From: Chloroflexota bacterium
GTDB lineage: Bacteria; Chloroflexota; Dormibacteria; CF-121
Direction of reading: 5' to 3'
Assembly: GCA_005880615.1 (NCBI GenBank)
Contig: VBID01000128.1
Coordinates: forward strand, 1-36,777
DNA: 36,777 nucleotides
The translations under genes and the position numbers were made by a program. How positions within the stretch are numbered: the stretch's first letter is position 1; every line of letters starts with the position of its first letter. The notes beneath the pieces were generated by a model. It saw only the letters and a list, made by a program, of their open reading frames with translations, did no database searches and had not been told where the DNA came from. Shown one piece after another: positions 3,298 through 21,358 of this stretch.

Positions 3298-3993
3298 TTA
3301 CAGTCCTGGCGTCGGTGAGGACGCCGCACTCGGAACCTTGTGATGCCGCTTGGTCGCGTCCCAGAAGGGAATCGGGCCGGTCTGCAGGTGCTGCAGGATC
3401 TTGGTCTCTTGGGTCTTGGTCAGCTTGCCCTGGGCGACGGCTTGGTCTAGCACCAGGGTCAGGTTCGTGATCAGCGCCGCCCGGAACTGCGCCTCGCTGA
3501 TGCCCTTGGAGTCGGCGATCTGGTGCAGAGTGTGGCCATTGGCCAGGGCCGTCTTCAGCTCCGCGGTCGTCATGCTCAGGGACTTGGCCGCCGCGTCGAG
3601 CACCGCCGGCAGCTCAGCTCTCCCCTTCTCGTGGAAGCCGAACGAGCCCGCAAACCGGCCACTGCAGACGGGTCCGCTGGCCAGCCTGGCCTTCAGGCGG
3701 TCGGCCTGCGCCTTGGTCAGGTCACCGGAGGTGACGGCGTCGTCGATGGTCTGGGTCACGGCCTTGCCCACCGCCGTGGCGACCTCGGACTGGGACTTGC
3801 CCAGGTTGCCGGCGAGGTGCGAGAGAAACTTGTTGCAGTAGGCCTCGGCCTTCGCCTTCTCGCTGGTAGCGGCGGGGGCGCCGGCTGGCTGAAGTCGCCC
3901 GCTGGCGGCGAACGCGCCAATACCGATCGTGACCGCGGCGACACCCGCCACGGTAACGCCGGCCGCGACTCGCGGAATCCTCGAAAAAGTCAT
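3298..3993 (-). CDS. Secreted helical protein with two LTK-x-Q repeats, function unknown
   Basis: Predicted 231-aa exported protein. The N-terminus (MTFSRIPRVAAGVTVAGVAAV...) is a signal peptide or anchor ending near an Ala-rich stretch. The start is ATG at 3993, because AGGAGG lies 7 nt upstream; the ORF track's start at 4023 lies upstream of that ribosome site. The mature part is alpha-helical and repeats a motif: DLTKAQADRLKARLASGP and later KLTKTQETKILQHLQTGP, with an additional SMTTAELKTAL / ISEAQFRAAL pattern. Such repeats occur in small secreted proteins of uncharacterised families in Actinobacteria and Chloroflexi. Two Cys residues (one in the AYCNKF segment, one at GPVCSG) may form a disulfide. 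It ends at a strong terminator and appears monocistronic. No function can be assigned. Confidence 0.75.
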   Translation of the reverse strand: MTFSRIPRVAAGVTVAGVAAVTIGIGAFAASGRLQPAGAPAATSEKAKAEAYCNKFLSHLAGNLGKSQSEVATAVGKAVTQTIDDAVTSGDLTKAQADRLKARLASGPVCSGRFAGSFGFHEKGRAELPAVLDAAAKSLSMTTAELKTALANGHTLHQIADSKGISEAQFRAALITNLTLVLDQAVAQGKLTKTQETKILQHLQTGPIPFWDATKRHHKVPSAASSPTPGL

Positions 3994-11067: not shown

Positions 11068-12558
11068 TTATCCCGGACCGCGCCCACGGGCCAGGCGACC
11101 GACGAGACGGAGGACCCCGGGCAGTCGCTTGGCGACCGCGACGACCCCGCGATCCATGCGGGTCATGTGCTCGCGTGGTCCGGGCAGTGTCGCCGGCCTG
11201 GAGGCAGGACCCACGCCCTCGCCCGCCACCGCAAAGAGGTGCCAGGCTCCCTGCACGCCACGGAGCTCGTGGCGGCCCCGGTCCTGGAAGCGCAGCCGAG
11301 ATCCGGCCACCAGGTCTCGAACGGTCCTCGACACCAGCACCTCGTTGGGGCCTGCCGTGGCCGCGATCCGGGCCGCCACATGAACGGCGAGCCCGCCCAG
11401 CTTGTCGCCGATCCGCTCACACTCTCCAGTGTGAACACCCGCCCGGACCTGCAGCCCGAGGGAATCGACTGACGCAACGACGGCGCGGGCGCATTCCACC
11501 GCTCGGCCAGGACCGTCGAAACTGGCAAAAAAGCCATCCCCGGCGGTGTCGAGCTCGCGTCCGCCGAACCGTCCCAGCAGCGCACGGACCTGGGCATGGT
11601 GGGCTTCCAGCAAATGGTGCCACCGCTGGTCGCCCAGCGCGCTAGCTCGTTCCGCCGACCCGACGATGTCGGTGAAGAGCAGCGTGGCCAGCACCCGGTC
11701 GGGGTCGGCCGCGGCAGGAGCCGCGCCTGTGAGAAAGCGCTGGATCTCGTCGACCACGGCGTCATAATCGCCCGCCCAGAACGCATGATCGTTGCCGGGA
11801 AGCTCGACGAACTCGGCCCCCGAGACTAATCCGGCGAAATAACGGCCGCCGGCGACCGGAAAAATGTCGCCCGTGCGATGGAGGACGAGCGTGGGCACCC
11901 GCACAGTCGGCAGGATCCCGGTGACGTCGGCCTGCTTGGCCGCCTCGACAAGCGCGCGGGCCATGGCCGGGCTGGCCCCCGTTCGCTCGAACACGCCCCA
12001 GAAGCTCCGCTGCAGATCGCTTCGGGCGCTGGGGGCGAGCAGGTCGCCGAGGCGTCCCTCGCCCCAGTGGGCAAGTACATCGTCGAACCCGGCGATCGTG
12101 CGCTGGTACTCCTCAAGCCTGACACCGGCCTCGCGCAAGGTCGCATCCGATGGCCGGCCCACGGCATAGGAGCCGTAGACGATCAGCGCGCTGGTCCGCT
12201 CCGGCCAGGTGGCGGCGAACATGGCGCAGGTGGGCCCGCCCTCCGAAAAGCCGAGGAGGGCGGCGCGCTCGCAGCCGGCCGCATCGAGGACGCACCGTAC
12301 GTCGCTGATCCGCTCTTCCAGGGTCGGCACGTGCTGGATCGGGTCGGAGAGGCCGGTCCCTGGCTTATCGAAGAGGACGAGGCGGGTGAAGGAGGCCAGC
12401 CGCGATAGGAACCGGCTAAAGCCGAGATCCGTCCACTGCAGGTCCAGGTGGGAAATGAAGCCGGGGACGTACACTAGGCAGGGCCCGCTCGAACCAACGA
12501 CCTGGTAGGCGATGCTGAGATCGCCGTTTCGCGCATATCGCGTCAGTGGCTGCCTCAC
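11068..12558 (-). CDS. Alpha/beta hydrolase - class III nucleotidyl cyclase fusion
   Basis: 496 aa. Residues 1-280 are an alpha/beta hydrolase: LVYVPGF (oxyanion region), nucleophile elbow GFSEGG with Ser105, LVLHRTGD for the acid loop, and GNDHAFW carrying the likely catalytic His. Residues 290-445 are a class III cyclase homology domain: LLFTDIVGSAERA (first metal Asp), ELDTAGDGFFASF (second metal Asp), RAGVHTGECE and AVHVAARIAATA (transition-state Asn replaced by His-Val-Ala, Arg kept). The C-terminal 50 residues are basic. This arrangement is known in mycobacteria and Chloroflexi, where the hydrolase part may sense or process a small molecule and control cAMP production. The dimer could be active because both metal Asp residues are present. 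The gene diverges from the selenoprotein gene, with 63 bp between starts. Confidence 0.9.
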   Translation of the reverse strand: MRQPLTRYARNGDLSIAYQVVGSSGPCLVYVPGFISHLDLQWTDLGFSRFLSRLASFTRLVLFDKPGTGLSDPIQHVPTLEERISDVRCVLDAAGCERAALLGFSEGGPTCAMFAATWPERTSALIVYGSYAVGRPSDATLREAGVRLEEYQRTIAGFDDVLAHWGEGRLGDLLAPSARSDLQRSFWGVFERTGASPAMARALVEAAKQADVTGILPTVRVPTLVLHRTGDIFPVAGGRYFAGLVSGAEFVELPGNDHAFWAGDYDAVVDEIQRFLTGAAPAAADPDRVLATLLFTDIVGSAERASALGDQRWHHLLEAHHAQVRALLGRFGGRELDTAGDGFFASFDGPGRAVECARAVVASVDSLGLQVRAGVHTGECERIGDKLGGLAVHVAARIAATAGPNEVLVSRTVRDLVAGSRLRFQDRGRHELRGVQGAWHLFAVAGEGVGPASRPATLPGPREHMTRMDRGVVAVAKRLPGVLRLVGRLARGRGPG

Positions 12559-12621
12559 GGTGTGAGCTTACGTCCCTCAGGCTCGTACGATAGAGAGGTC
12601 ACCAAGACTAGGAGAACCGCG

Positions 12622-13957: not shown

Positions 13958-15415
13958 ATGGCCACTACTACCATCGCCGCGCCCAGGACGGGGGAGCTGC
14001 TCTCGGAGCGAATTGCTCCCGGCATCCTGCCCAAGGTCCTGGGCCCGTTCGACATGGTCGCCATCTTCGTCGCCATTGTTCTCTTCGCGAATCAGGGTTC
14101 CGTCATCCAGGCCGCCGGCGCCGCCGGCTTTGTCTACTGGGTCATCGGCTTCGTCACGTTCCTCATCCCCGGCGCCATCGTCACCGGCCAGCTCGGCCTG
14201 ATGTTCCCCGGCGAAGGCTCCATCTATGTGTGGACGAACAAGGCGCTGGGCGGCTTCTGGGGCTTCTTTGCCGGTTTTGCGGCGTGGTGGCCTGGCGTAC
14301 TCGTAATGGTCGCCACCGCCGACTTGATCGTGACCATGCTCCAGTTCCTGAACGGGAACTGGCTGCAGCAACCCTGGCAGCAGGGACTCGTCATCCTGGC
14401 GGTGATCTGGTTCAGCACGGTCCTTTCAATCCTTCGTTTCCGCGTCACCCAGAACATGGTGAACACGGTCTTCGTCATCTACGGGGCCGCCATTGCGGCG
14501 GTCGGCCTGGCCGGCCTGGCCTGGCTGTTAGGCGGGCACCCGGCCGCCAATGACTTCTCGCGGAACGCCTTCGGGCTGAACGGCGGCAACGCCACCTTCT
14601 ATGGACTGGTCATCCTCGCCCTGCTGGGCATCGAAGTGCCGCTGAACATGGGCGTCGAGATCAAGGACCGGCGGGCGATCACCAGTTACCTGTTCTGGGG
14701 CTCCATCGTGGTCATCGCCGGCTACCTCCTCTTGACCTTCGGGGCGATGGTCGTGGTCCCGCAGGCCAGCGCCAACTCGACCACCGCCATCCTGCAAGCC
14801 GTTCAGATGTCCCTTGGGAGCGTGGTCAGCACCATCGTCACCCTGATCCTGATCGCGTTCTTCCTCTTTAACACGACCGTGTACAACTACTCGTTCGCCC
14901 GACTGCTCTTTGTCTCCGGACTGGACCGTCGCCTGCCCGGCGTGCTGGGCAAAGTCAACCGGAACAAGGTCCCCCACGTCGCGGTCTTCACGCAGGCAGT
15001 GATCACCTCCGTTATCACGGCGATCACGTTTATCGTCTTCGGGTTTGGCGCGAACGTCAATCTTGGAACGCAGATCTATCTCATCCTGCAAGCCTCTGTG
15101 ACGGTGATCTGGTGCGTGTCGATGGTCCTGCTTTTCGCAGACGTGCTGGTCATCCGAGCCAAGTACCCTGAGGAATTCAAGCGCGAGCAACTGGCGCCAA
15201 TTGGCGTCTTCGTCGTGGCATCGGTGGCCGGCGCTATCGCCAGCGCGGTGGGCATCTGGGTCACCCTGACCGGCTCCTGGAACGGGCAGCTGATCGGCAA
15301 TCGCGACTGGCTCTGGCTGGTCGGGGGAGTCGGCGTCATATCCCTGGCGGTCGCCGTCGTCGTCTATGTGCTTGGCCTCAACCAGGCCCGTCGGGCCCAG
15401 GCGGCCCAGGCCTGA
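13958..15415 (+). CDS. APC-family amino acid/amine permease
   Basis: 485-aa integral membrane transporter of the amino acid-polyamine-organocation superfamily, with about 12 predicted helices. The first helices contain ILPKVLGPFDMVAIFVAIVLFANQG and PGAIVTGQLGLMFPGEGSIYVWTNKALGG, in which the GEGSIYVW segment matches the APC TM2-TM3 signature. The start is ATG 13958, chosen because GGAGGAGG ends 6 nt upstream; the ORF-track ATG at 13922 lies before that site. The stop TGA overlaps the next gene's ATG by one base (TGATG), so translation of the glutamine-synthetase-like ligase is coupled. That pairing suggests uptake of an amino acid or amine that the ligase glutamylates. Substrate is unknown. 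Confidence 0.9.
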   Translation: MATTTIAAPRTGELLSERIAPGILPKVLGPFDMVAIFVAIVLFANQGSVIQAAGAAGFVYWVIGFVTFLIPGAIVTGQLGLMFPGEGSIYVWTNKALGGFWGFFAGFAAWWPGVLVMVATADLIVTMLQFLNGNWLQQPWQQGLVILAVIWFSTVLSILRFRVTQNMVNTVFVIYGAAIAAVGLAGLAWLLGGHPAANDFSRNAFGLNGGNATFYGLVILALLGIEVPLNMGVEIKDRRAITSYLFWGSIVVIAGYLLLTFGAMVVVPQASANSTTAILQAVQMSLGSVVSTIVTLILIAFFLFNTTVYNYSFARLLFVSGLDRRLPGVLGKVNRNKVPHVAVFTQAVITSVITAITFIVFGFGANVNLGTQIYLILQASVTVIWCVSMVLLFADVLVIRAKYPEEFKREQLAPIGVFVVASVAGAIASAVGIWVTLTGSWNGQLIGNRDWLWLVGGVGVISLAVAVVVYVLGLNQARRAQAAQA

Positions 15416-16809
15416 TGGCCTCCACCATCACCAACACGGTGCGCGCGGCGGGCCCGGAGGTCCGCCGCGGCGAGATCGTGGCCCGGGCGGAGACGGCGGG
15501 ACTCCGCCTGGTCCGGTTCCTCTACTGCGACAACGATGGGATCATTCGCGGCAAGGCCACCGGCATCGCCGGATTGAAGGACCGGCTGGAGACGGGCATC
15601 GGCCTGACGGTCGCCATGCAGGCTTTCACCATGCTCGACCACCTGGCCCCGGTGGAGGGCATGGGTCCGGTGGGCGAGATCCGCCTGGTCCCGGACCCCG
15701 ACACCTTCGTGATTGCGCCCTACGCACCCCACACCGGCGTCCTGCTGGTCGACATGGAGACGCTGGACGGCAAGCCGTACGCCGCCGACGGCCGGGCCTT
15801 CCTGCGGCGCACCATCGAACGCGCCGCTGAGAAGGACCTGGAAATCGTGGCGGCCTTCGAGCCCGAGTGGTCGCTGGCGCGCCAGGTGGACGGCGCTTTC
15901 GTGCCGCTGGATGACGGCGGCTGCTTCACGACCACTGGCATGGACGCGGCCCAGGACGTGATCGATGAGATCGTCGCCGCCCTGGAGGCCCAGGGGCTGA
16001 CGGTCGAGCAGTACTACGCCGAGCTGGGCTGGGGCCAGCAGGAGCTCTCCATCCGGCACGCCCCGGCGCTGCAGGCCGCCGATCGTCACCTCCTCTACCG
16101 GGAGACGGTGCGGGGGGTGGCGCTGAAGCACGGGCTCTACGCGTCCTTCGCCCCCAAGCCGTGGGCGGACCAGGCCGGCAACGGCTGCCACCTCCACTTC
16201 TCCGGGTGGAATCGGGAGCGGACCGTGAACCGCTTCTACGACCAGAACGCCCCCTACTACCTCTCCGAGCTGGGGAAGCAGTTCATGGCGGGTATCCTGG
16301 AGCACCTGCCCGGGCTGGTGGCGCTGACCTGTGCGTCGGTCAACTCCTACCGCCGCCTCCAGCCGCAGATGTGGGCCTCGGCGTACCGGGTGTGGGGACC
16401 CGATAACCGCGAGGGCGCGCTCCGACTAGCGTCCACCTTCCGCGGCCATGAGGCGGAATCGATCAACATCGAGCTCAAGTCGTCCGACTCCAGCGCCAAC
16501 CCCTACGTCGCGCTGGGCGGGGTGATCGCCGCCGGGCTGGATGGGATCGAGCGACGCCTCCCACTGCCGCCACCGGTAACGGTCGATCCCCACACCATGG
16601 ACGAAAAGGCGCGCCAGGCGATTGGCGGCGACCGCCTGCCGCAAAGCTTGAAGGAAGCCGTGGGCAAACTGAAGCGCGATCGGGTGCTGACGGAAGCGCT
16701 CGGCGACCGCCTGGCCACCTCCTACATCGCGGTCAAGGAACTGGACATCGACGCCTTCGCCGGAGCGGACGAGGCGTTCGAGTTCCGCCAACACATCTAC
16801 AAGTACTGA
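15415..16809 (+). CDS. Glutamine synthetase family ligase (gamma-glutamylamine synthetase-like)
   Basis: 464 aa, full length for the GS fold. The N-terminal beta-grasp region has VRFLYCDNDGIIRGKA. The catalytic domain has the E-x-G-x-GQ-x-E motif (ELGWGQQELSI), the glutamate-site motif GNGCHLHFS, NSYRRLQPQMWAS, RVWGPDNREGALR and ELKSSDSSANPYVALG. These mark an ATP-dependent carboxylate-amine ligase. It differs from housekeeping GlnA (GSGMHVHQS is changed, and no adenylylation-site NLY motif was seen). It sits in an operon with a permease and near a FluG-type amidohydrolase, so it more likely makes gamma-glutamyl amides (as PuuA or IpuC do) than glutamine for assimilation. It overlaps the permease gene by 1 nt. 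The exact amine substrate is unknown. Confidence 0.85.
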   Translation: MASTITNTVRAAGPEVRRGEIVARAETAGLRLVRFLYCDNDGIIRGKATGIAGLKDRLETGIGLTVAMQAFTMLDHLAPVEGMGPVGEIRLVPDPDTFVIAPYAPHTGVLLVDMETLDGKPYAADGRAFLRRTIERAAEKDLEIVAAFEPEWSLARQVDGAFVPLDDGGCFTTTGMDAAQDVIDEIVAALEAQGLTVEQYYAELGWGQQELSIRHAPALQAADRHLLYRETVRGVALKHGLYASFAPKPWADQAGNGCHLHFSGWNRERTVNRFYDQNAPYYLSELGKQFMAGILEHLPGLVALTCASVNSYRRLQPQMWASAYRVWGPDNREGALRLASTFRGHEAESINIELKSSDSSANPYVALGGVIAAGLDGIERRLPLPPPVTVDPHTMDEKARQAIGGDRLPQSLKEAVGKLKRDRVLTEALGDRLATSYIAVKELDIDAFAGADEAFEFRQHIYKY

Positions 16810-16921: not shown

Positions 16922-17509
16922 ATGACCACTCGGCCCTTGTTGCTGGCGATCGCCCTGACCCTGGCGGCCTGCGGGACACCCCAGGCCACCGTCACGCCGT
17001 CTTCCACCCAGCCGGCATCGAGTGCCTCGTCGTCCCCCAGCCTCGGTCCCTTCGCCTGCACCGATCGCTCGGGCGGCGTCACCAATGCGTTCGCCGACCT
17101 GCGTGCCATCCGCGTGGCGCATCAGACCGGCTTTGACCGCATCACCTTTGAGTTCACGCCCTGGCCCGATGCGCCGGCCCAATCACCCGTCGGATTGCCT
17201 GCCTATCAGCTGACCCAGCAAGCCACCGCCAGGTTCTACAAAGACGCCAGCGGCCTGCCGCTGACGCTGATCGGAACAGCCGGCCTCAAGGTGGTCTTCC
17301 ATGGGGGCAGCGGCTACGGCACGTACACCGGCAGCCAGGACTTGAAGCCGCCAGTTGTGCTGATCACCGAGGTGGCTCAGCTTGGCGACTTCGAACGGAC
17401 CCTGAGCTGGGGCATCGGGCTGAACCCCTCGGCCTGCTACCGGACTGTCGAGCTGAGCAATCCCACCCGGCTGGCGATCGACTTCCAGACCCCACCGGCC
17501 GCCGGCTAG
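16922..17509 (+). CDS. AMIN-like-domain lipoprotein
   Basis: 195 aa. The start is ATG 16922, giving MTTRPLLLAIALTLAACGT with lipobox LAAC, so it is a lipid-anchored protein. The upstream ORF-track start at 16868 would add 18 residues before the signal peptide. After a Ser/Thr/Pro linker, the mature domain has GFDRITFEFTPWPD, YQLTQQATARFYKDASG, GDFERTLSWGIGLNPSACYR and NPTRLAIDFQTPP. These match the AMIN-like domain found in actinobacterial and Chloroflexi lipoproteins. Such domains are beta-rich and thought to bind cell-wall or periplasmic ligands. It follows the ligase gene after 112 bp. Co-transcription with the permease-ligase pair is possible but not shown. Confidence 0.75.
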   Translation: MTTRPLLLAIALTLAACGTPQATVTPSSTQPASSASSSPSLGPFACTDRSGGVTNAFADLRAIRVAHQTGFDRITFEFTPWPDAPAQSPVGLPAYQLTQQATARFYKDASGLPLTLIGTAGLKVVFHGGSGYGTYTGSQDLKPPVVLITEVAQLGDFERTLSWGIGLNPSACYRTVELSNPTRLAIDFQTPPAAG

Positions 17510-17667: not shown

Positions 17668-20184
17668 ATGGCCCGCCGTCTCCGGGCGGCCGGGATCCTG
17701 GCCATGGCTCTGGGGGCGGCATCGGCAGGCGCTGCCCATGCCCAGGTTCCCTCCCCCCAAATACCGGAGTTTGTTCCAGCAGAGCTGACCGTAACCAACC
17801 CGCCCGGCCAGCCGGTGATCACCCCCGAGCAAGCGCGGGTCGTGACCAACCTGATCTGGGTGATGCGAGAGTACAGCCGCGCTCTCAAGCAGGAGAACTG
17901 GATTCCCTTGATCGAGACCGGCGCCGCCAAGGAGCTCGACCATAACTGGATGCAGGGTCGACTTAGATCCTGGGCCGCCGAGCGCGCCCCGCGTCAGGCT
18001 GAGGAGGTCTCCGTCGTGCTGTCGCGCCAGTACCAGTTTCCCGCTTTCTTCATCGCCCACCTCAACTCCTCGGGCGAGCACACGAGCACCGAACGCTTTG
18101 GGCAGTTCCTGGTGTTCACCAGGGTCACGGCGGACGCCCCCTGGCAGCTGGCCATCGAAACCTTTACCCGCGACTACGACAGCGAGCCCCTCGTCCTCCC
18201 CCGCCCCGACGACGAGGGGTATGTCCCGGCGGCGCCTCTGGCGACGCCGCCCGCGGTCAATGTTCCGCGGGTGGTTGCCGAGTTCTTGCAGCACTCGTTC
18301 ATGGCCGGGACGCCCCCTCCCGGGTCGCCCATTGTCGCGACCCCAGACGCCACCCGGCGTGGACACATTCTCTTTGACCGGACGCATGTGGCAGGCATCG
18401 CCATTACCGATGCGCGGGTCGAGCTGCCCGATCGCCTGCTGCCGGATGCCCTCTTCGAGATCGACAGCCCCAGCGGAATCAGCCTCCTCTGCTTCAGCAT
18501 GCACTACGCCGAAGGTCGCGACGGATCATGGTGGCGACCGGTGGGCCTCCACTGGAGCCAGGTCGGGGAACCACCGGACGGTGCCTATCTCCGCCTTCGC
18601 GCTCCGGTGCTCGAGCAGGACTGCGTGGCGGTGAACGCCGGATCCAGGATCACCCTGATCGCGGACCAGACCGCCTACGAGCCGCGCATCGCGGTGGCGG
18701 CCCCGGTGCCGTGGTTCCCCATCGGTGCCGCTGGTCTGGCGCTCATGGGTATGGTGGCAATTCTTGTCCTCGTGCTCCGTCCCGGGGGCCACCCGGCCAC
18801 TCCGACCTCACCCACCCCGTATCGCCAGCTTGGGGTCGATACCCGGGTTCGCGCCCTGGGGACCGCCCTGGCAGCCGGCCTGGTGTTCGCTCAGGTGGAA
18901 GGCACCTTGCTCCTGTACCTGCCTCTGGCCGGCGTGGCCCTCGCAGTGCTCGTCATCGGCTGGCTGGGCCTGCGGCTGTGGTTGCGACGGCGTCGAGCCG
19001 TCACCATCAGCGCCCGGATCGAGATTCCACGCACACCAGACAAGATCTTTGATTTTGTCGCCGACCTTGGCAACCATCTCGTCTGGTCGACCGACCTCGA
19101 AGCCGTCGAGCCCTTAACCCCCGGCCCACCCGGGGTCGGTTCCCGGTACCGCTTCCGCCAGCGTCTGGGCGACGATCGCCGGATTGAATTCGTCTCCCAG
19201 GTGATCGACTATCAGCCGGGCTGGCGCTTCGAGACCCTGCTGGACGACGGGCTGCATCACCAGACCACGACGTACACGCTGCGCCCCGTCAAAGGGGGGA
19301 CCGAAGTGACCTCCGCGCTTCGGATCGAGCTGGGACCACTGGGGGCGGTGGCCGGTGACGAGACCCGGAGCGGCGTCTTCCGGCGCTTCATCAAGACGCA
19401 CCGGATGGAGGGTCTGCAGCGCCTGCGCACGATCCTGACCGATCCGAACGGGGTGGCCCCCGCGCCGGGTCCGCCCGAGGGACCGCCACTCAAGGGCCCC
19501 AGCCTGCTGAAAGTGGCGGTAGTCATGTCGCTCGTCACCGGGTTGGTCACCCTGAGCCGGTGGTGGCCCCTCACCCTGGTGTGCTGGATCCTGGAGGGCT
19601 TTTGCCTCATGGTCTGCATCCACGAGTTCGCCCACTTCTTCGAGGCCCGGCGGCAGGGCAACCACCCCGATCCTCCTGTGCTCACCGGGTGGACGGGCGC
19701 GGCCGTCAAGCCCCACCCGCGCCCATCGACCGGCGTTGGCCTCGCCCAGATGGCCGCGGCTGGACCGATCGCCGGGGCGGTCACCACCGCCGCCAGCCTG
19801 ATCCTCTATGCCAGATACCCCTGGTCTGGGTTCCTGTGGTGGGCCGTCGGATCGAGCGTGGTCACGGTGGCTCAACTCTATCCGTGGACCGGAACCGATG
19901 GCCAGAAATTCCTGGCACCGAGCGCCCGCTGGTTCGCGCCAGTCGGACTCGCGCTGGGGATCGGCGCCTACGTGATCCTGATGATGGCGGGGCTGACGAG
20001 CGTGCTGCTGGCGGCCGCGGTGGTGATCAGCGTGGGCGCCCGGCTGGCACCTCTCGTTCGCGTCCCATACGCGCAGGCTAGCGCTCCGGTTGGGCTGACC
20101 CTCGGCTTCAGCTGGGCCGCGGTGTCGCTGTATACGGGCTTCGTCCTCATGATCGGCGTGAACTGGTTGCTCCCCCTCAGCTAG
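17668..20184 (+). CDS. Membrane protein: extracytoplasmic domain + SRPBCC domain + M50 site-2-protease-like domain
   Basis: 838 aa from ATG 17668; GTG 17659 is three codons earlier. A signal peptide (MARRLRAAGILAMALGAASAGAAHAQ) precedes a roughly 330-residue exported domain of no recognised family, then about three helices (PWFPIGAAGLALMGMVAILVLV; AGLVFAQVEGTLLLYL; AVLVIGWLGLRLWL). An SRPBCC/polyketide-cyclase-like domain follows at about residues 448-600 (ISARIEIPRTPDKIFDFVADLGNHLVWSTD...). The last part is polytopic: HEFAHFFEARRQG gives the HExxH zinc motif near residue 652, then MAAAGPIAGAVTTA, and PWTGTDGQKFL supplies a third-ligand Asp near residue 744. These three are the order of site-2 (M50) proteases. 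Predicted role: intramembrane proteolysis coupled to a ligand- or lipid-binding domain. It sits upstream of the FluG-like gene with a 31-bp gap. Each domain call is visible in the sequence; the joint function is inferred. Confidence 0.75.
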   Translation: MARRLRAAGILAMALGAASAGAAHAQVPSPQIPEFVPAELTVTNPPGQPVITPEQARVVTNLIWVMREYSRALKQENWIPLIETGAAKELDHNWMQGRLRSWAAERAPRQAEEVSVVLSRQYQFPAFFIAHLNSSGEHTSTERFGQFLVFTRVTADAPWQLAIETFTRDYDSEPLVLPRPDDEGYVPAAPLATPPAVNVPRVVAEFLQHSFMAGTPPPGSPIVATPDATRRGHILFDRTHVAGIAITDARVELPDRLLPDALFEIDSPSGISLLCFSMHYAEGRDGSWWRPVGLHWSQVGEPPDGAYLRLRAPVLEQDCVAVNAGSRITLIADQTAYEPRIAVAAPVPWFPIGAAGLALMGMVAILVLVLRPGGHPATPTSPTPYRQLGVDTRVRALGTALAAGLVFAQVEGTLLLYLPLAGVALAVLVIGWLGLRLWLRRRRAVTISARIEIPRTPDKIFDFVADLGNHLVWSTDLEAVEPLTPGPPGVGSRYRFRQRLGDDRRIEFVSQVIDYQPGWRFETLLDDGLHHQTTTYTLRPVKGGTEVTSALRIELGPLGAVAGDETRSGVFRRFIKTHRMEGLQRLRTILTDPNGVAPAPGPPEGPPLKGPSLLKVAVVMSLVTGLVTLSRWWPLTLVCWILEGFCLMVCIHEFAHFFEARRQGNHPDPPVLTGWTGAAVKPHPRPSTGVGLAQMAAAGPIAGAVTTAASLILYARYPWSGFLWWAVGSSVVTVAQLYPWTGTDGQKFLAPSARWFAPVGLALGIGAYVILMMAGLTSVLLAAAVVISVGARLAPLVRVPYAQASAPVGLTLGFSWAAVSLYTGFVLMIGVNWLLPLS

Positions 20185-20215: not shown

Positions 20216-21358
20216 ATGCCGACCGACCCGGTCGTCCTCCTGCATGCCTGGGAGCAAGAGCCGGCGGTTGATCACCACTGCCATCCGCTGCGCCGCTGGC
20301 CGTTCCAGCTCACCGCTCTCGAGCTGCGGGCCGCCTTCACCGAAGCCATCGACCGTCGGATACCCCAGGAGCATGTGCTGCAGACCGCCGGGTATCGCGC
20401 CGCCCTCCGGCGTCTCGGCGATGCCCTGGGCTGCGAGCCGACCGAAGCCGCCATCCTGGACCTGCGCAACCGGGCCGAGCCCGCCGAGTTCGCGAACCGA
20501 ATCCTGCAGCGCACCAACACCGGCCTGCTGCTGCTCGACTACGGATTCAGCGGCGGCGACGGGTTCTCGCCCCATGAGCATGCCCGCGTGGTGCGGGTGC
20601 CGCAGCGCGAGATCGTGCGGCTGGAAACGGTGGCCGAGCGGCTGGTCGCTGGCACGAGCGATCCGCGCGAGTGGCTGGCGGCCGTGCGGGGCGCGCTGCG
20701 CAGCGCCGTGCAGGCCGGCGCAGTGGGAGTCAAGACCATCTGCGCCTATCGGGCCGATCTTCGGCTCCGGCCGGTCGACACCGACCAGCTGGGTGTCGCC
20801 TTCACCATGCTGCGCCACAAGGCCGAGCGACAGGAACCCATCCGGGTGACCGGGGCGGCGCTGTGCCATGCCCTGCTGTTCGAGGCGGCCGCCGAGTGCC
20901 GTGAGCTGCGCGTGCCGCTGCAGGTGCACTGTGGGTTTGGCGATCCCGATGAAGACCTGGCCGAGGCCTCCCCGCTGGGGCTCCGCCCCCTGCTGCAGGA
21001 CAAGCAGTATGCGGGTCTTCGGCTGGCGCTCCTGCATTGCTATCCGTACCATCGCGAGGCCGCCTACCTGTGCGCCGTATACCCGGACGTGTACATGGAC
21101 CTATCGCTGGCCATCCCGATGGCGGGTGATGACGGCGCGCAGGCGCTGAAAGAGGCCCTTGGGCTGTGCCCATTTTCCAAGCTGCTCTACGCCACCGACG
21201 CCGCCCGCTACCCGGAGGTCTATCTGGTCGCGGCGGCGGCGCATCGCGAGGCCCTGGTCATCGCCTTGGGGGAACTGTTTGACCCGGCAACAGCGCTGGA
21301 CGCCGGCCGCCAGGTCCTAGCCGCTAATGCGAAGCGACTCTACCGTCTCGATGGCTAG
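20216..21358 (+). CDS. FluG-type amidohydrolase (amidohydrolase-2 family)
   Basis: 380 aa. Metal-binding motifs of the amidohydrolase superfamily are visible in order: DHHCH near residue 19, GVKTI with a possible carbamylated Lys near 178, VPLQVHCGFGDPDEDL with His near 240, LLHCYPYHREAAYLCAVYPD with His near 275, and LLYATDA with the final Asp. This matches the amidohydrolase part of FluG-like proteins, which is found fused to or next to glutamine-synthetase-like ligases. Here the ligase gene lies 3.4 kb upstream on the same strand. The enzyme may hydrolyse the gamma-glutamyl or a related amide. The start is ATG 20216. The stop overlaps the first codons of tag by a few bases, indicating translational coupling. 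Confidence 0.8.
   Translation: MPTDPVVLLHAWEQEPAVDHHCHPLRRWPFQLTALELRAAFTEAIDRRIPQEHVLQTAGYRAALRRLGDALGCEPTEAAILDLRNRAEPAEFANRILQRTNTGLLLLDYGFSGGDGFSPHEHARVVRVPQREIVRLETVAERLVAGTSDPREWLAAVRGALRSAVQAGAVGVKTICAYRADLRLRPVDTDQLGVAFTMLRHKAERQEPIRVTGAALCHALLFEAAAECRELRVPLQVHCGFGDPDEDLAEASPLGLRPLLQDKQYAGLRLALLHCYPYHREAAYLCAVYPDVYMDLSLAIPMAGDDGAQALKEALGLCPFSKLLYATDAARYPEVYLVAAAAHREALVIALGELFDPATALDAGRQVLAANAKRLYRLDG

Follow-up and report, generated by a model that had tools for sequence, protein, structure and literature searches.

A site-2-protease-like membrane core fused to exported and SRPBCC domains in a Dormibacterota family

In this study, we describe a protein in which an exported N-terminal domain, an SRPBCC domain and a membrane core resembling site-2 proteases (S2Ps) are joined in one polypeptide, an arrangement that recurs in further genomes of the same Dormibacterota family. 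The best explanation of the fusion, to which we give about even chances, is that it is a one-polypeptide membrane sensor-protease. An S2P-type core with this domain set was not found described in the literature searched; no paper contained both 'site-2 protease' and 'SRPBCC', and wider searches returned nothing on such a fusion.

Architecture and recurrence of the fusion

The gene is one open frame encoding 838 aa at positions 17668-20184 (+) of the window, i.e., the whole 36,777-nt stretch of DNA that was analysed. These coordinates include the stop codon (17668-20181 without it), and an alternative GTG start is possible 9 bases upstream. From N to C terminus, the protein consists of a signal peptide, the exported domain, a TM segment, a TM hairpin, the SRPBCC domain and the M50-like membrane core. 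An earlier sequence-only reading had proposed that an exported domain, an SRPBCC domain and an S2P-like core were combined in one protein, and this was borne out by the single frame and the PF10604 match. The order of S2P motifs proposed in the same reading also held, with HEFAH followed by MAAAGPIAG (residues 695-703) and TGTDGQ. HEFAH is predicted to supply two zinc ligands and the catalytic Glu. The features are as follows.

17668-20184, +: fusion gene (frame and codon composition; full-length order kept in L005/L070, L067+L072 and L071)
17668-17745, +: signal peptide, about residues 1-26 (Arg-rich start, hydrophobic core, AHAQ cleavage region)
17746-18702, +: exported N-terminal domain, residues 27-345 (about 53-167 modelled as NTF2-like)
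18709-18786, +: TM segment 1 (tether helix), residues about 348-373 (hydropathy; an Arg-containing loop then follows)
18856-18975, +: TM hairpin, residues about 397-436 (hydropathy; RRRR directly after; SRPBCC would thereby lie in the cytosol)
19000-19431, +: SRPBCC domain, residues 445-588 (PF10604, E 1.3e-12)
19468-20181, +: predicted M50/S2P-like membrane core, residues 601-838 (homologues, profile and fold matches)
19621-19635, +: HEFAH, residues 652-656 (aligned to HExxH of 50 standalone relatives; helix in the model)
19873-19875, +: Gln736 (Asn at the same position in 50/50 standalone relatives)
19888-19905, +: TGTDGQ, residues 741-746 (D744 is the presumed third zinc ligand; Asp in 50/50 relatives and all fusions)

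The full architecture was found in three more genomes (G012, G013, and G014) of the family to which this genome (G000) belongs, all of them soil Dormibacterota MAGs, and the four carriers fall into two genera. The entire protein is encoded in one frame in G013, is split over two contig ends in G014 (C109 ends at 3903 inside the gene and C101 begins inside it), and retains the N-terminal and SRPBCC domains with a broken core in G012. With three more genomes sharing this order at identities of only 27-30%, the fusion is not an assembly accident. The modules do occur as separate genes in the class, where the exported domain is carried by anchored proteins or a lipoprotein, SRPBCC domains are found in TM + SRPBCC proteins, and the M50 enzyme stands alone; the concern that the fusion might for this reason be artefactual was answered by its recurrence in the same order in four genomes, and the modules are truly fused here. 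That they are common as separate genes, and that L071 is frameshifted, would fit a reading in which separate genes were joined by an assembly or frame error, or in which the gene is a decaying pseudogene. We consider this very improbable, given that four genomes from two genera share the fusion, that the coding composition is uniform (G+C by codon position is coding-like over the entire gene, with no break at domain borders) and that the zinc residues are retained; on the conserved fusion and the coding composition, we reject an assembly or frame artefact. As for the G012 fusion itself (L007, 2541-2840 of G012:C186; L071, frameshifted), the HExxH helix is missing, and this loss and the broken frame may reflect decay or an assembly error.

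Beyond the four carriers, no further fusions were found among 110 genomes of the class and 400 of the phylum. A search of named genome contigs with the whole protein found no full-length relatives, and a plasmid search returned only SRPBCC matches. As far as searched, the architecture is restricted, judging from these comparisons, to one Dormibacterota family.

The membrane core and its active site

Of the two domain matches expected from the sequence-only reading, that of the SRPBCC domain to PF10604 stood, at 48.6 bits relative to a curated cut-off of 27.4, but the fusion protein itself matched PF02163 only at E 0.58, which is below the cut-off. The core is nonetheless a predicted member of M50 by its homologues, profile and fold matches, although Pfam alone misses it. 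Many genomes of the class encode standalone proteins, about 300 residues long, that match the core (phmmer, E down to 1.7e-21); two of these proteins scored 1.3e-12 and 1.8e-14 against PF02163. The family profile, when run against PDB sequences, retrieved MjS2P (1.9e-12), SpoIVFB (3.6e-8), and RseP (3.8e-6). An AlphaFold2 model of residues 601-838, built from 54 sequences, reached a pLDDT of 82.9 and a pTM of 0.80, and the only confident Foldseek matches to it were MjS2P and two SpoIVFB entries (probability 0.99-1.00), these being modest by other scores (E 0.009-0.04, TM-scores about 0.4). We make the M50 assignment because the standalone relatives match PF02163 and because both profile and fold searches find S2Ps. 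In the model, HExxH does lie in a membrane helix, as an intramembrane protease would demand, within one long helix (638-662) and a hydrophobic segment, and the Asp of the core follows another TM helix. In the alignment, this residue, D744, falls on the Asp of LDG in 50 relatives, whose profile in turn aligns to MjS2P.

The active site was compared between 50 standalone relatives and the three fusions with an intact core. The standalone M50 proteins of Dormibacterota and Ktedonobacteria (about 300 aa; L008-L033, L076-L095, and L096-L125) have a core homologous to that of the fusion over its whole length, but are without the SRPBCC or exported domain. Twenty-two columns are near-invariant in the 50 relatives, 11 of which are kept in all three intact fusions, and H652, E653, H656, and D744 are all among these 11 (p 0.045 if retention were random). 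The surroundings of the Asp have changed. Where the extended motif is N-x-x-P-x-x-x-L-D-G, the fusion described here reads Q-L-Y-P-W-T-G-T-D-G, with Asn and Leu changed and Pro, Asp, and Gly kept. Among positions invariant in 50/50 standalone relatives, the Asn at 736 (eight residues before the Asp) and the Leu at 743 are changed in all three intact fusions, and the Gly at 745 in two of the three. In known S2Ps, mutations in HExxH and LDG lower activity, and within the extended LDG motif it is the Asn that has been implicated in substrate interaction (review, PMC10202637). Since the His, Glu, His, and Asp residues are kept while the Asn/LDG context is altered, the zinc site of the fusion looks maintained but modified. 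Peptidase activity is likely but not safe on these alignments, because the Asn and the Leu and Gly of LDG are wholly or mostly changed. The natural loss of an otherwise invariant Asn with His, Glu, His, and Asp retained provides a test of that residue's role.

Distribution and genomic context

Records that matched the relatives were soil MAGs labelled Chloroflexi or Candidatus Dormiibacterota, and it is on these labels that we place the family in the Dormibacterota. Within the family, 17 of 18 genomes possess only one of the two proteins, fusion or standalone enzyme: G000, G012, and G013 have the fusion only, 14 have the standalone protein only, and G014 has both. By Fisher's test, this exclusion has a probability of 15/3060 = 0.005, a hand calculation on genomes that are incomplete and related. 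The pattern is a hint that the fusion replaced the standalone M50 enzyme in part of the family. On a quick tree, the fused cores group together with weak support (58), and their end branches measure 1.9-3.1 changes per column relative to a median of 0.11; a single origin of the fused cores is likely from this tree but not secure, given the weak support and the very long branches.

Upstream of the fusion gene are an amino-acid permease, a glutamine-synthetase-like gene, and an AMIN-like lipoprotein, and downstream is an amidohydrolase. The glutamine-synthetase-like (15415-16809) and amidohydrolase (20216-21358) genes adjoin directly in eight relatives, including G012-G014, and in this genome the lipoprotein and fusion genes lie inside this otherwise contiguous pair, which suggests that the two were inserted into an operon. 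A general link of the fusion to the glutamine-synthetase and amidohydrolase genes is ruled out, as the pair adjoins without the fusion in those eight relatives. The link to the upstream lipoprotein raised by the sequence-only reading also failed, and we rejected this protein as a partner: it was not found in G013 and G014, i.e., in two of the four carriers, and it is present in 14 genomes without the fusion. The other carriers hold the fusion at different loci. Since no conserved neighbor is common to the four fusion loci, no substrate is suggested by context.

Two further observations concern the window itself. The AMIN-like lipoprotein (16922-17509) belongs to a family that often has 2-4 copies per family genome, several of them close together on one contig. 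At 11071-12567, a single frame encodes a fusion of an alpha/beta hydrolase and a guanylate/adenylate cyclase domain; similar hydrolase-cyclase fusions are known in mycobacteria.

Accessory domains and a possible mechanism

The AlphaFold2 model of the exported domain (11 sequences; pLDDT 74.9, pTM 0.79) has two alpha-beta halves. Several of its best-probability fold matches are NTF2-like (e.g., AtzH and a domain of ARC6/PARC6), with probabilities of 0.9-1.0, TM-scores by target of about 0.5, and E-values of only 0.01-0.2; a PDB sequence search with the domain found no match. NCBIfam model NF053531 (lipo_SCO2278) matched the same region weakly in all five domain-bearing proteins scanned (8.8e-5 to 0.11), the best score among them being 21.5 bits, far below the curated cut-off of 210 bits. 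By sequence, the exported domain is akin to SCO2278-type lipoproteins, though only distantly, and by its model one half would be NTF2-like; unlike the fusion, the NF053531 model includes neither SRPBCC nor M50. Because of the NTF2-like fold matches, a binding role outside the cell is plausible for the modelled domain. For the SRPBCC domain, the PDB sequence search gave weak matches only (best, Rv1546 at E 0.12), and a TM + SRPBCC paralogue is encoded elsewhere in the same genome (L034). SRPBCC domains often bind or process hydrophobic molecules, and that of the fusion may bind a ligand as well. The positive-inside rule predicts a cytosolic location for the loops at about 373-396, 437-443, and 661-694, and it is these positive charges that would place the SRPBCC domain and the zinc site on the same side, both presumably facing the cytosol, with the exported domain opposite.

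It is plausible that the exported NTF2-like domain, the SRPBCC pocket, or both bind a ligand, probably a hydrophobic one, and that binding outside or inside the cell would change the access of membrane substrates to the zinc site. Such gating would be comparable to that exerted in RseP by PDZ or in SpoIVFB by its CBS domain, except that here the gating domains are part of the chain on the N-terminal side, and the fusion, with an altered substrate-binding loop, might stand in for the standalone M50 enzyme of most relatives. Ligand-controlled proteolysis would be a plausible function. In S2Ps, accessory domains are known to govern how substrates reach the active site, and the S2Ps treated in review are under the control of PDZ or CBS domains or of separate inhibitors (PMC10202637, PMC9042235). 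In favor of a sensor-protease are the order kept in four genomes, the M50 homology, the S2P fold matches, the retention of His, Glu, His, and Asp, and the near-exclusion with the standalone enzyme. Against it are the Asn, Leu, and Gly changes, the extreme divergence of the core, the one carrier without the HExxH helix, and the lack of a conserved neighbor.

Much of this contrary evidence would also be expected if the core had kept its fold and metal site and ceased to cut. As a pseudoprotease or zinc-binding scaffold, it might serve to anchor the protein in the membrane, or as an adaptor that binds substrates and relays a signal between the exported and SRPBCC domains. The lost Asn and LDG context in three fusions, the very long branches, and the carrier without the HExxH helix all agree with this serious though somewhat unlikely alternative; zinc binding alone does not require the catalytic Glu, which is however kept together with both His residues and the Asp in all three intact fusions. 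The change of an Asn linked to substrate interaction could also point to a zinc-dependent membrane enzyme other than a peptidase, to which the SRPBCC domain, of a type associated with hydrophobic molecules, delivers a lipid or other hydrophobic substrate. We regard this as improbable, since all confident structural and sequence neighbors of the core are peptidases, and we know of no conversion of an M50 protein to a non-peptidase enzyme.

If the sensor-protease reading is compared with known systems, MjS2P (3b4r) and SpoIVFB (8vjl/8vjm), both M50B, are the best sequence and fold matches of the core and have in common with it the membrane core, HExxH in a helix, and an Asp carried by a different TM segment. 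If they have an accessory domain, it is a CBS domain that follows the core, whereas the fusion has its SRPBCC and exported domains before it, as well as an altered Asn/LDG context. RseP (S2P group I) resembles the fusion in its zinc motif and in the idea that substrate access is governed by an accessory domain. It carries a PDZ domain, whereas in the fusion a Pfam scan, read up to E 1, gave neither PDZ nor CBS, the domains that go with S2P groups I and III, and the accessory domains are of other folds. We propose tentatively, and with considerable doubt, a new regulatory class of intramembrane protease: one S2P core that would be controlled, within a single chain and with no site-1 protease involved, by an exported NTF2-like sensor together with a cytosolic SRPBCC ligand domain. 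In part of the Dormibacterota, it would have taken the place of the standalone enzyme. With a ligand-binding type of domain on the cytosolic side of the core and a sensor-like domain outside, small-molecule control of intramembrane proteolysis would become directly testable in one protein.

The exported-domain family was found in 11 of 110 genomes of the class. At two loci (L127, 1435-2865; L128, 1027-2508), a single TM segment links the domain to an N terminus that is rich in Cys and resembles a zinc ribbon, possibly another signalling arrangement.
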